Origin: Chitinophaga pinensis
Lineage (GTDB): Bacteria; Bacteroidota; Bacteroidia; Flavobacteriales_D; Crocinitomicaceae
DNA: 37,466 bases
Reading direction: 5' to 3'
NCBI GenBank assembly: GCA_943324565.2
Contig: CALPMC020000022.1
Span: forward strand, 1-37,466
Shown here: one piece after another, positions 17,293 to 36,734 of the stretch
How positions within the stretch are numbered: position 1 is the stretch's first letter
Layout: the number at the start of each line of letters is the position of its first letter
The notes under the pieces: generated by a model
Databases searched by the model: none
What the model was told of the DNA's origin: nothing
The model's input: only the letters and a program-made list of their open reading frames with translations
Position numbers and translations under genes: made by a program

Positions 17293-17377
17293 ACCTCCCC
17301 CTTCGAAGGGGGATTGAGGGGGATGACTATAAATTAAATTGTCACCTCCCTCAATCCCTCCTCAAGGAGGGAAGTCA
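17293..17377. repeat. GC-rich intergenic inverted repeat upstream of ribBA
   Basis: Two ~35-bp blocks, 17293-17328 and 17344-17377, are imperfect reverse complements and flank a short AT spacer. Each also contains its own palindrome (CCCCCTTCGAAGGGGG; CCCTCCTCAAGGAGGG), so either a cruciform or two hairpins could form. It is much richer in G and C than the surroundings and resembles the short palindromic intergenic repeats scattered in Bacteroidota genomes. Short tandem phrases (ggactttaag, taggactttaggattttagg; tttcagttctcagttttcat) lie on either side. Confidence 0.7.
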
Positions 17378-34547: not shown

Positions 34548-35256
34548 TCAATTTGTAAATTTCAAAGATTCCTTTGAGGGTTAAATTTTCGTCTGCAAAG
34601 ATGTTACTTTTTTGCTCGAAATCAAAATAATGAGCATCTCCACCTGTGATAAAAATAGTTAAGTCTTGATATTCATGTTGATAACGATTAATAATACCAT
34701 TTATTTCAGCTTGCATCCCATTTTGAACACCTGACTGAATGGCTGAGGTTGTGGAATCACCAATTAAATCTATTGCTGTTGTTGGTTCAAGAAGTGGCAG
34801 TTTGGCCGTAAATGAATTTAAAGCTTTGAAACGCAACCGCAAACCAGGAGAAATCGCACCGCCTAGATAATTTTGATGTTCATCTAAAAAATCAAATTTG
34901 ATACAAGTACCAATGTCAACGCACAATCGATTCCCAGTTGACTTTAGTGAATTTAAAGCAGCGATATTACAAAGTCGATCGATGCCTAAAGTTGCTGGAG
35001 TTGTATATTTCATCCCAAATGGAAGACTCAAATTGGAATGAATTTGAAAAATTGAACTTGCTTTTTTCTTTAAATCCTCCCAAAAAGAGGCATCTATTAC
35101 CGAAGAAAGAACGATTTTTTCATTTTTATCTATAAAATTTAGGAGTGCTAAACGATCTTCAAAATATTTAACAGAAAGAAGTGTATTGTTTTCAAATACA
35201 GCAAGTTTAACTCGTGTATTACCTGCGTCAAGTACTTGAATTCTTTCCATTTTCAT
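34531..35256 (-). CDS. coaX: Type III pantothenate kinase
   Basis: This 241-aa CoaX phosphorylates pantothenate, the first CoA step. The ASKHA-fold signatures are LDAGNTRVKLAVF, TLGIDRLCNIAAL, CVDIGTCIKFDFL, GGAISPGLRLRFKAL and IFITGGDAHYF. TAACTTTG at 35269-35276 (minus strand) is a -7 candidate 12 bp before the ATG. The gene is first in the operon coaX, outer-membrane protein, lptC, small membrane protein. It stands divergent to tRNA-Phe. Confidence 0.93.
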   Translation of the reverse strand: MKMERIQVLDAGNTRVKLAVFENNTLLSVKYFEDRLALLNFIDKNEKIVLSSVIDASFWEDLKKKASSIFQIHSNLSLPFGMKYTTPATLGIDRLCNIAALNSLKSTGNRLCVDIGTCIKFDFLDEHQNYLGGAISPGLRLRFKALNSFTAKLPLLEPTTAIDLIGDSTTSAIQSGVQNGMQAEINGIINRYQHEYQDLTIFITGGDAHYFDFEQKSNIFADENLTLKGIFEIYKLNATHA

Positions 35257-35306
35257 CGGTTTTCAGCACAAAGTTAAACTGCTTTTTACGATTTTTTGGA
35301 AATAAA

Positions 35307-35339
35307 TTTGATTTTCAAAAGAAAAAGTTATTAAATTTG
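35307..35339 (+). promoter_or_regulatory. tRNA-Phe promoter
   Basis: TTTG (35307-35310), 21 bp, TAAATTTG (35332-35339), then 15 bp to the tRNA. Motifs and spacing equal those of tRNA-Val in this window. Confidence 0.7.
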
Positions 35340-35354
35340 CACCCACCGAAAGCT

Positions 35355-35427
35355 GGTACCTTAGCTCAGTCGGTAGAGCAAAGGACTGAAAATCCTTGTG
35401 TCCCTGGTTCGATTCCTGGAGGTACCA
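35355..35427 (+). tRNA. tRNA-Phe (GAA)
   Basis: Acceptor GGTACCT/AGGTACC, D arm GCTC/GAGC, anticodon stem AAGGA/TCCTT with loop CTGAAAA (anticodon GAA, Phe), and T loop TTCGATT. The T stem CCTGG/CCTGG has one T-T mismatch. CCA is not encoded. A second, damaged copy of its 3' half lies at 35725-35779. Confidence 0.95.
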
Positions 35428-35434
35428 CTGAAAG

Positions 35435-35469
35435 AAAAGCGACGCGAAAGTGTCGCTTTTTTTGTTTCT
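35435..35469 (+). terminator. tRNA-Phe terminator (first copy)
   Basis: AAAGCGAC, a short loop and GTCGCTTTTTTT form a hairpin with a T-run right after tRNA-Phe. The 35-bp sequence is identical to 35784-35818. Confidence 0.85.
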
Positions 35470-35483
35470 TAATAATAATTACT

Positions 35484-35729
35484 ATGTTTTTCGTTTATGT
35501 AATTTATTCAGATACAATTGGAAGAAAGTACATTGGTCAAACTGAAGATTTAGAACGAAGAATAAATGAACATAACAATGGTTTGTTAGGTGTTTACACT
35601 AAAAATAAAGGACCATGGCGGCTGGTTTATTTTGAGCAATATCAAACAAGATCGGAAGCAATGAAAAGAGAGAAGGAACTTAAAACTGGTAAAGGGAGAG
35701 ATTTTCTTAAAACAACAATAGGTTACTGA
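35484..35729 (+). CDS. GIY-YIG nuclease family protein
   Basis: This 81-aa single-domain nuclease begins MFFVYVIYSD (GIY position), followed by KYIGQTEDLERRINEHN (YIG plus conserved Arg) and MKREKELKTGKGRDFL with the metal-binding Glu. It is like the short URI/GIY-YIG proteins common in Bacteroidota. A longer open frame starts upstream but runs through the tRNA; the ATG at 35484 is the sensible start. The stop TGA lies within the tRNA-derived repeat that follows. No promoter is seen between the preceding terminator and this ATG, so expression would need read-through. Confidence 0.88.
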   Translation: MFFVYVIYSDTIGRKYIGQTEDLERRINEHNNGLLGVYTKNKGPWRLVYFEQYQTRSEAMKREKELKTGKGRDFLKTTIGY

Positions 35730-35779
35730 AAATCCTTGAGTCCCTGTTCGCCGCGGCGAACGATCCTGGAGGTACCACT
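35725..35779 (+). repeat. Damaged second copy of the tRNA-Phe 3' half
   Basis: It matches 35385-35429 (anticodon loop to past the 3' end), with one substitution (TTGTG to TTGAG), small indels and an insertion in the T arm that creates the 14-bp palindrome TTCGCCGCGGCGAA (35747-35760). The acceptor end GGAGGTACCACT is intact. No 5' half is present, so it cannot be a tRNA. It holds the stop codon of the GIY-YIG gene. Confidence 0.9.
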
Positions 35780-35783
35780 TGAT

Positions 35784-35818
35784 AAAAGCGACGCGAAAGT
35801 GTCGCTTTTTTTGTTTCT
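35784..35818. terminator. Second copy of the tRNA-Phe terminator
   Basis: Identical to 35435-35469 over 35 bp. It lies between the GIY-YIG gene and the convergent PD-(D/E)XK-like gene, whose stop codon (35817-35819) overlaps its last bases, so it may serve both directions. Confidence 0.85.
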
Positions 35819-36734
35819 AAATCTCAATCAATAAATCATTTTCTATTATCCAATTTCTGATTTGTTCCAAATTAAATAAACCTTTTTTGATATCTTCTAT
35901 TTGATCTTCAAATTCCTTTGTCCTATCAATTTTTGTTGATTTAATTCGAATTGAAAAGCTTTTATTGTGTTTTTCGAGCAGCATTCCATTAGGAAGTTTT
36001 TCTTTTATTTTAAAGTACAACTCATTACTGAACCCTCTAAAATTTGCATCTGTGTTTCCTTGACCAAGTTTGTGGTAAAAAGTTATTCCTTGAAGTTCAT
36101 CATCATAAAGCATCGGCCAATCGCTGTTATGTGGAACAATACCAGGTTTTTTCATCGTAAATGAAGGGTGATTCTTTTCTTTAAAATGCCAGTATAAATG
36201 CCAAAATTTTTGAACAGTTTCAGAATTTACAGGTTGATATCCCCTTCTTAATTTTTCTGATGCGATTTTGAGAAGTTCACTTTTAAATAGATTTCTTTTA
36301 GTCCCAATCAATTCAAATCTTGATGCAATTGTTTCGTATGAAATGTAATTTTCAAAATCGTTTTGATTCTCACAATATAGGTTTGGTGCAACTAATACGG
36401 TATATATTTTATCGCACTCATTTTTAATTAGATACTCATTTGCTCTTTTAGTATATCGTTCATATTGAGCTTCCTGAAAAGAAGCATCTAATTTATTCTC
36501 TATTAGAACAAATATTTTGGAATCTTCTGAATTATAAGAAAACAATATATCAGTTTCTCCTAAACCAAAGTCTGTAATACTTCTCCATGCTCCATTTACA
36601 GATAAAAATCTAGGCAAATTCAATTCATTTACAAACCACTCACAAAAGGAATTGTCAGTTATCAATTCTTCAAGTAATATTAAATCAACATCCCTTTCTA
36701 AAATTGATTCGACTGGTAAAATAGTATGTTCCAT
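35817..36734 (-). CDS. PD-(D/E)XK nuclease superfamily protein
   Basis: This 305-aa protein has a restriction-endonuclease-like core near residues 58-95: GETDILFSYNSEDSKIFVLI, ENKLDASFQEAQYERY. This gives Asp62, Glu79-Asn-Lys81 (the D...ExK triad) and the QxxRY tail, as in PDDEXK_4-type families. The C-terminal half (LYFKIKEKLPNGMLLEKHNK) may be a substrate or partner-binding part. Members occur singly in variable regions and are suspected to act on DNA, but no methylase or partner gene is near. It stands alone. Confidence 0.8.
   Translation of the reverse strand: MEHTILPVESILERDVDLILLEELITDNSFCEWFVNELNLPRFLSVNGAWRSITDFGLGETDILFSYNSEDSKIFVLIENKLDASFQEAQYERYTKRANEYLIKNECDKIYTVLVAPNLYCENQNDFENYISYETIASRFELIGTKRNLFKSELLKIASEKLRRGYQPVNSETVQKFWHLYWHFKEKNHPSFTMKKPGIVPHNSDWPMLYDDELQGITFYHKLGQGNTDANFRGFSNELYFKIKEKLPNGMLLEKHNKSFSIRIKSTKIDRTKEFEDQIEDIKKGLFNLEQIRNWIIENDLLIEI

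Follow-up and report, generated by a model that had tools for sequence, protein, structure and literature searches.

Introduction

SegB is a free-standing GIY-YIG homing endonuclease of T-even phages, which cuts in tRNA genes (PMC13096335, PMC2988022). Its cleavage motif, RAWTSGAAC, is found at 23 of 83 mapped sites and is described as enhancing rather than required (PMC13096335). In fungal mitochondria, mobile open reading frames (Allomyces atp6; Glomus atp6, atp9, cox2 and nad3) are described as replacing the 3′ end of a gene (PMC3630166). UPF0213/Slx1-like proteins, which consist of the GIY-YIG domain alone, have been described as DNA repair or structure-specific nucleases (PMC1564403). Genomic islands in tRNA and tmRNA genes are found with programs such as Islander, which, according to the accessible text, rejects candidates that have no integrase or are smaller than 2 kb (PMC4383910); units of about 350 bp are therefore excluded by design. 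A search of the open literature by titles and beginnings of abstracts, with subscription papers and preprints outside its scope, gave no description of the units reported here among the papers listed.

Short hairpin sequences mark the unit boundaries of integron cassettes and of REP/RAYT elements, and integrons also carry arrays and cargo. Integrons use an integrase, and the REP/RAYT elements an HUH transposase.

Layout of the tRNA-Phe locus

The window, i.e. the whole stretch of DNA analysed (37,466 nucleotides), is one contig of a 3.17-Mb genome (termed G000; 179 contigs, 98.9% complete). An earlier note on this DNA had described an intact tRNA-Phe gene with its terminator, an 81 amino acid GIY-YIG gene, and a second tRNA 3′ part with a terminator. 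This layout is confirmed by the sequence (Table 1), and the offsets given for it (340 and 349 bp) and the identity of the terminators over 35 bp are exact. A pattern search (41 bases, up to 3 mismatches) found a single copy of tRNA-Phe in the genome.

Table 1. Features of the tRNA-Phe locus and of the unit in the window.
Feature	Position	Strand	Remarks
Intact tRNA-Phe(gaa)	35355..35428	+	Rfam tRNA, 69.8 bits; 3′ part element-borne under the proposed mechanism
Terminator T1, adjoins the intact tRNA	35435..35469	+	Direct repeat; element-borne under the proposed mechanism; the G003 remnant fits T2 better
GIY-YIG nuclease gene, 81 aa	35484..35729	+	Catalytic domain only, UPF0213/Slx1-like; PF01541
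Left tRNA-derived piece of the putative element end, anticodon loop to T-stem, 22 bp	35725..35746	+	Contains the nuclease stop codon (35727-35729)
Perfect 14-bp palindrome TTCGCCGCGGCGAA in place of T-loop bases; putative element/native junction	35747..35760	+	
Putative displaced native tRNA-Phe 3′ tail	35761..35777	+	Direct repeat; terminators of relatives
Terminator T2, putative displaced native, 35 bp identical to T1	35784..35818	+	

Three direct repeats join the two halves of the locus: a 22-bp repeat at 35385 and 35725 (spacing 340, 95% identity), a tRNA tail repeat at 35414 and 35764 (spacing 350, 16 of 16 positions) and the terminator block at 35435 and 35784 (spacing 349, its first 35 bp identical). 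The spacing shifts from 340 to about 350 because the T-loop of the second copy contains the palindrome. The palindrome is missing from the earlier note, which had placed the point of entry at the anticodon loop. Its position indicates that the insertion junction is the T-loop; together with the allele boundaries described below, it moves the point of entry to the T-loop in tRNA-Phe and to gene positions 45–50 in tRNA-Arg. In the 22-bp piece, which starts within the anticodon loop, one odd base (GAGTCCCTG for GTGTCCCTG) is shared with units of two related genomes, G062 and G073; this piece therefore seems to belong to the end of the element itself. The unit spans about 35410–35760.

A group I intron with a homing endonuclease was considered and rejected: the tRNA is uninterrupted, and an Rfam scan of positions 35200–35950 with matches up to E = 0.1 gave no group I intron. 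Directly 3′ of the element, at 35817–36734 on the minus strand, is a gene of a PD-(D/E)XK nuclease family (PF14281, E = 6.2e-08).

The nuclease protein

The 81 amino acid open reading frame matches PF01541 with E = 1.8e-18. It is nested in a longer open reading frame that has an upstream GTG start. An alignment of the nucleases displays conserved columns at Y5, Y16, G18, R26 and E63, which we take to be the catalytic positions of the GIY-YIG domain. Known GIY-YIG homing enzymes have a DNA-binding domain; the 81 amino acid protein is without one. The closest solved structures by sequence are UPF0213 and SLX1 (PDB 1ywl, 1zg2 and 7cq2), and for this reason a structure-specific role at a hairpin is the main rival to the mechanism proposed below.

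GIY-YIG is the sole recognised gene in the window unit, and likewise in 329-bp units of the genome G015. There is no integrase gene within the window unit or these 329-bp units. Neither an IntI integrase nor an HUH Y1 transposase is found in the window unit, whose protein is PF01541.

The tRNA-Phe locus in related genomes

Comparison with relatives bears on the question of which of the two tRNA 3′ copies is native. Upstream of the tRNA tail the genome G003 is identical to the window at 197 of 200 positions. Behind its tRNA-Phe there is a different terminator, which is like that of G009 (downstream identity 94% over 184 bp). The tRNA-Phe of G003 is thus an apparent mosaic, upstream like G000 and downstream like G009. 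A D-loop base that it has in common with G000 is absent from G009, which places the crossover inside the tRNA gene. A remnant 3.3 kb further on in G003 matches the window's T2 over 38 bp and T1 over 29 bp. Because the remnant fits T2 better, the second copy in the window is likely to be the ancestral 3′ end, and the 3′ part joined to the intact tRNA is likely to be the incoming copy. The similarity of T1 and T2 over 35 bp suggests that the donor was probably a near relative. The far junction in G003 is decayed and shows no palindrome, and therefore this locus is supporting rather than clean evidence.

An empty tRNA-Phe locus, which the earlier note had proposed to look for in close relatives, was found in G021, where one native terminator lies directly behind the tRNA. 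The same terminator is found behind the last displaced tail in G073 and G062, and other terminators adjoin the tRNA-Phe of these two genomes. The tRNA-Phe of G062 is followed by three units in tandem, two of which are of about 100 bp and have no nuclease gene. The Phe-type nuclease has a patchy distribution: of 86 genomes of the genus, at least 10 have it next to tRNA-Phe, and no nuclease gene was found in the scanned Phe loci of G021, G009, G003, G025 and G007. G003 and G025 have displaced tails with no nuclease at the site.

The tRNA-Arg locus

The clearest cases of transfer are at tRNA-Arg, where, as at tRNA-Phe, both occupied and empty target alleles are present among relatives. In G062 tRNA-Arg carries an allele termed Y, followed by its own terminator, and is free of units. 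Compared in 50-bp windows, G073 and G062 agree at 0.86 to 1.00 from −550 to −50 upstream of the tRNA. The value is 0.28 over the 50 bp next to the tRNA, where additional sequence is present in G062. The tRNA-Arg of G073 is a second allele, X, identical to that of another species, G068, across the whole tRNA. Counted from tRNA base 46, its unit is identical to the G068 unit at 349 of 357 positions (98%). Behind this unit in G073 is the palindrome TCCGCCGCGGCGGA, and then the 3′ half of allele Y with a terminator region identical to that of G062 at 123 of 130 positions. Donor sequence changes to native sequence within AGGTCT (gene positions 45–50), starting one base past the palindrome.

The 5′ half of the G073 tRNA is also of donor type, from position 6 on. 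This points to co-conversion, a mark of break repair and not of exchange at a single core, for which this tRNA is the one clean case. The nuclease gene of this unit (L286) is broken into two pieces in different frames, and the unit is therefore not autonomous at present.

G004 displays the reverse arrangement: allele Y is in the tRNA-Arg, and behind the unit and a palindrome is the 3′ half of allele X with a terminator region identical at 129 of 130 positions to that of G060, which is free of units. The tRNA-Arg tails of G076 are Y and then X. No nuclease gene is found in the scanned Arg loci of G060 and G062. Allele Y by itself was set aside as a weak marker of the nuclease; it was seen in 17 genomes out of 46 that gave a match, and several of these loci have no second tail.

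The earlier note had proposed that a unit of about 340–350 bp entered the tRNA, supplied a new 3′ half and displaced the old one. The G003 mosaic, the terminators of G021, G073 and G062, and the tRNA-Arg cases support this, with one change: by the evidence of G073 the sequence brought in can extend beyond the 3′ part to a whole tRNA. They also bear on a reading with no mobility, by which the tRNA 3′ end was duplicated locally in tandem around a resident nuclease gene and then decayed. Tandem copies are common, and the 35-bp identity of T1 and T2 is as this reading would have it. Against it are the mosaic in G003 and, at tRNA-Arg, the foreign allele and the unit that is 98% identical in another species, with the native tails displaced. 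A purely local duplication is contradicted at both the Arg and the Phe loci and was rejected; we consider it highly improbable.

Mini-units and cargo

Units with no nuclease gene (mini-units) are present in G062, in G015 and in the window's own genome. Those at L128 and L131 lie upstream of tRNA-Met and have a D-loop palindrome; there are three in tandem in G015 and one in the window genome. Other genes may also occupy the site. In G003 (L034, 1659–4990) an AbiEi/AbiEii pair lies between tRNA-Phe and the displaced native terminator, and in G025 two tRNA tails enclose a zeta-toxin-like gene. No small GIY-YIG gene was found in either of these cargo loci.

According to the earlier note, its model would be refuted if relatives without the nuclease carried both tRNA 3′ copies. 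In part this is so: displaced tails without a nuclease do occur (G003, G025 and the mini-units). There are also empty loci with the native terminator behind the tRNA (G021 at Phe; G060 and G062 at Arg), and because of these the nuclease-free tails and mini-units are read as units from which the gene was lost or in which it was never present.

Occurrence in other genomes

The observation at tRNA-Phe belongs to a widespread kind of element. In all, 199 distinct small GIY-YIG open reading frames in 152 loci were collected, and sets of these are termed A–D. The genus set, A, consists of the small open reading frames among the matches listed. Set C contributes 46 of its 54 loci; L196–L200 were dropped as repeats of genus loci and three had no open reading frame over the threshold. 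Set D (L176–L195) is a manual selection made mainly for tandem arrays, and it counts towards the pooled totals of 84, 172 and 199. The elements of the named set were found by protein alone.

Exact direct repeats of at least 14 bp on the same strand flank 133 of the 172 small GIY-YIG genes that have enough flanking sequence, as compared with 5 of 93 control open reading frames from the same loci. With tandem nuclease copies left out, the values for sets A–D are 31/40 (among the matches listed), 18/21, 20/32 and 5/6. The repeats overlap a nearby intact tRNA in 19/52, 16/34, 20/46 and 9/33 of the scored elements of sets A–D, and some of them are not tRNA copies.

Counted as distinct elements, those with a tRNA on the same strand no more than 450 bp away number 45 of 56 for the named, 28 of 36 for the class and 17 of 33 for the hand-picked set; for the genus set they number 35 of 67 among the matches listed. 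The named records include Bacteroidota, Ignavibacteria, Patescibacteria, other candidate phyla and three archaeal MAGs, one of which has a tRNA beside the gene. The tRNAs involved are those for Met, Asn, Phe, Arg, Val, Lys, Ser, Cys, Pro, Leu, Asp, Glu, Thr, His and Ala. The lineage of the nuclease follows the identity of the tRNA: a tree of 65 rows, poorly resolved with its 85 columns, requires 26 label changes, and the lowest of 200 shuffles requires 36. For tRNA-Met (23 rows) there are 3 changes, compared with 19.1 expected.

These data also bear on the possibility that an unlinked tyrosine integrase moves the units as miniature tRNA islands, with the nuclease as a passenger. The layout and the subsites (anticodon loop and T-loop) do match those given for tRNA islands in the accessible text of PMC4383910. 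Such a passenger would have to recur beside tRNA genes across phyla in lineages that track the tRNA, and a single crossover at an att core would not replace the 5′ half of tRNA-Arg as seen in G073. This explanation appears improbable.

One subfamily is associated with tmRNA (L118 1190–2110, L100 and L109), with the GIY-YIG gene downstream of it; the gene of L118 is followed by AACCCCTCCGGCTCCAC, a displaced tail of tmRNA. A sister subfamily with the motif MYILxC (L057–L078, L086 and L087) has no tRNA on the same strand within 1 kb in 16 of 16 loci and thus serves as an internal control for the link with tRNA. Ten of the 14 members that could be scored lie between other direct repeats. Some of these repeats are palindromic (e.g. 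around CCCTTCGACAGGCTCAGGG), as though a different nuclease lineage were paired with a different repeat.

Tandem arrays reach 10 units: L176 (G214:C9) has 10 nuclease units at a spacing of 457 bp behind a single tRNA-Met, and L178 (G271:C34) has 8 units at about 364 bp, with no tRNA found in that stretch. Phage and plasmid collections gave matches of less than 60% identity only (18 and 13 records). A phage origin is not supported; three pattern matches in viral contigs do not encode a relative.

Junctions and palindromes

A displaced partial tRNA copy was scored in 84 of the 199 elements and none in 115, some of which are without flanking sequence or a tRNA. A perfect stem of at least 6 bp is present at the homology breakpoint in 76 of the 84, as compared with 10% of random windows from the same loci. 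Many of the palindromes read TCC...GGA. There are 119 elements that have sufficient flanking sequence and a tRNA on the same strand no more than 450 bp away; a copy was scored for 78 of them and not for 41, and the hairpin is found at 71 of the 78 (genus 20/20, class 15/16, named 22/25, hand-picked 9/12, other 5/5). Taken with the 45 of 56 named elements that are near a tRNA, these counts bear out the earlier expectation that GIY-YIG genes elsewhere would be linked to partial tRNA copies.

Where the unit lies upstream of the tRNA, the breakpoint is at tRNA positions 17–26, the D-loop region, in 18 of 18 cases. Where it lies downstream, 30 of 66 breakpoints are at positions 41–49, 24 at 50–57 and 12 elsewhere.

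The hairpins are central to a different explanation, in which the palindrome and tRNA pieces make up a structured site (a folded single strand or cruciform) as in an integron-like cassette. An Slx1-like nuclease would cut the hairpin and so free or expose the unit, and the tRNA loop would be the homologous landing place. The UPF0213 and SLX1 relationship of the protein is in accordance with this, as are the hairpins at 76 of 84 scored junctions and the resemblance of arrays, mini-units and cargo to cassettes. Pairing is also kept at ten tRNA-Met junctions, where 98.3% of cells are paired through two-sided changes (covariation 0.281, a value as high in 0 of 500 shuffles). Set against these points, the same palindromes are also dispersed in the genome at sites away from tRNA genes, and their form may reflect their own spread. 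On balance this explanation is rather unlikely, and homing into the tRNA gene is preferred.

The dispersed palindromes are of the 14-bp type TNCGCCNNGGCGNA, with 47 copies in G000 and 31 in G015 (0 and 2 for the reversed control); there are no occurrences in G088 and G017. They are spread over the whole of G000, e.g. in loci L130–L144, and occur also away from tRNA genes. At corresponding sites there is one informative repeat family: the palindrome of L140 lies in a repeat whose G003 copies have no palindrome, with a net change of 11 bp. The T-loop of the G015 Phe copies is altered by the same net 11 bp. The dispersal and the equal net change suggest that the palindrome may exist independently of the element. 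In the window there are two more GC-rich palindromes, TCCCCCTTCGAAGGGGGA and TCCCTCCTCAAGGAGGGA, at 17296–17372, their starts 59 bp apart.

Proposed mechanism

The probable explanation, in our judgement, is homing: the unit would be a minimal element of this type, targeting a tRNA gene, and would spread by break repair with co-conversion, in the manner of the fungal mitochondrial mobile open reading frames and of phage SegB. Its insertion, the displacement of the native tail, the replacement of alleles and the identity of units across species are documented by the genome comparisons; we infer cleavage by the 81 amino acid protein, and the position of the cut. The unit would consist of a tRNA 3′ part, a terminator, the gene for a GIY-YIG-only nuclease and, as its end, a short tRNA piece with the palindrome. 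The nuclease would cut a loop, in this case the T-loop, of a tRNA gene that has no unit, and homologous recombination from an occupied copy would mend the break, with donor tRNA sequence, terminator and nuclease gene copied in. The product seen in the genome comparisons begins with an intact tRNA of donor type; the unit and the palindrome follow, and behind them lies the native 3′ part of the recipient together with its own terminator. The palindrome may shield the displaced copy from cutting, which would otherwise excise the unit. Tandem arrays could arise by repeated insertion or by unequal exchange at the same tRNA, and the same site would be usable by mini-units or other genes.

Several points count against homing. 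The intact tRNA keeps the presumed target, and frequent self-cutting would therefore be expected. The protein has no extra domain and resembles the structure-specific Slx1/UPF0213 proteins. A mere blocked site does not predict the regular palindromic form or the covariation. In addition, no partial copy was scored for 41 of the 119 elements that have enough flank and a nearby tRNA, displaced tails occur also without a nuclease, and the Arg nuclease of G073 is broken.

A more general and doubtful possibility is a bacterial cassette system, in which GIY-YIG-only nucleases, each dedicated to one tRNA or tmRNA and with half-tRNA ends closed by a palindrome, load units, among them defence genes (e.g. 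AbiE) and mini-units without a nuclease, into tRNA loops, move them between species and replace the host tRNA allele each time. The same kind of nuclease would then write the dispersed palindromes.

If the unit is indeed a homing element, it would be among the smallest self-moving units known to us, about 350 bp with one protein of 81 residues. It would exchange tRNA gene alleles between species, in this case the sole tRNA-Phe found, and an integrase-based island finder such as Islander would reject it by design. A testable function would be provided for many genes named only “GIY-YIG nuclease” or “putative endonuclease”, and the palindromes scattered through these genomes might be connected with such elements.

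Comparison with known systems

The fungal mobile open reading frames are similar in that an endonuclease open reading frame comes with a foreign 3′ part that completes the host gene, the native 3′ part being displaced downstream, and in the atp9 case the endonuclease is GIY-YIG (PMC3630166). They differ in that they occupy mitochondrial protein genes, are larger and are mostly LAGLIDADG; the term “palindrom” is absent from the accessible text.

SegB is likewise a GIY-YIG gene beside tRNA genes and drives recombination and tandem amplification (PMC13096335, PMC2988022). It is phage-borne, however, whereas the present units are chromosomal and rebuild the tRNA. The terms “palindrom”, “hairpin”, “partial tRNA” and “truncated tRNA” are absent from the accessible SegB text (PMC13096335). 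By our own reading, the reverse complement of the SegB motif, GTTCSAWTY, would correspond to the tRNA T-loop box, and the palindrome of the Phe unit sits in the T-loop, the counterpart region of this motif.

The UPF0213/Slx1-like proteins share the minimal GIY-YIG domain and are the closest solved relatives, but tRNA-borne units are not described for them in the accessible text (PMC1564403). The tRNA and tmRNA islands, as described for Islander, share the regenerated tRNA with a displaced fragment, the same loop subsites, and a 3′ and a rarer 5′ type, but require a tyrosine integrase (PMC4383910). A regenerated tRNA with a displaced fragment, by which such islands are recognised, is found also at the window element. 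In contrast to integrons and REP/RAYT elements, the present units have a GIY-YIG nuclease, and tRNA halves as their ends.
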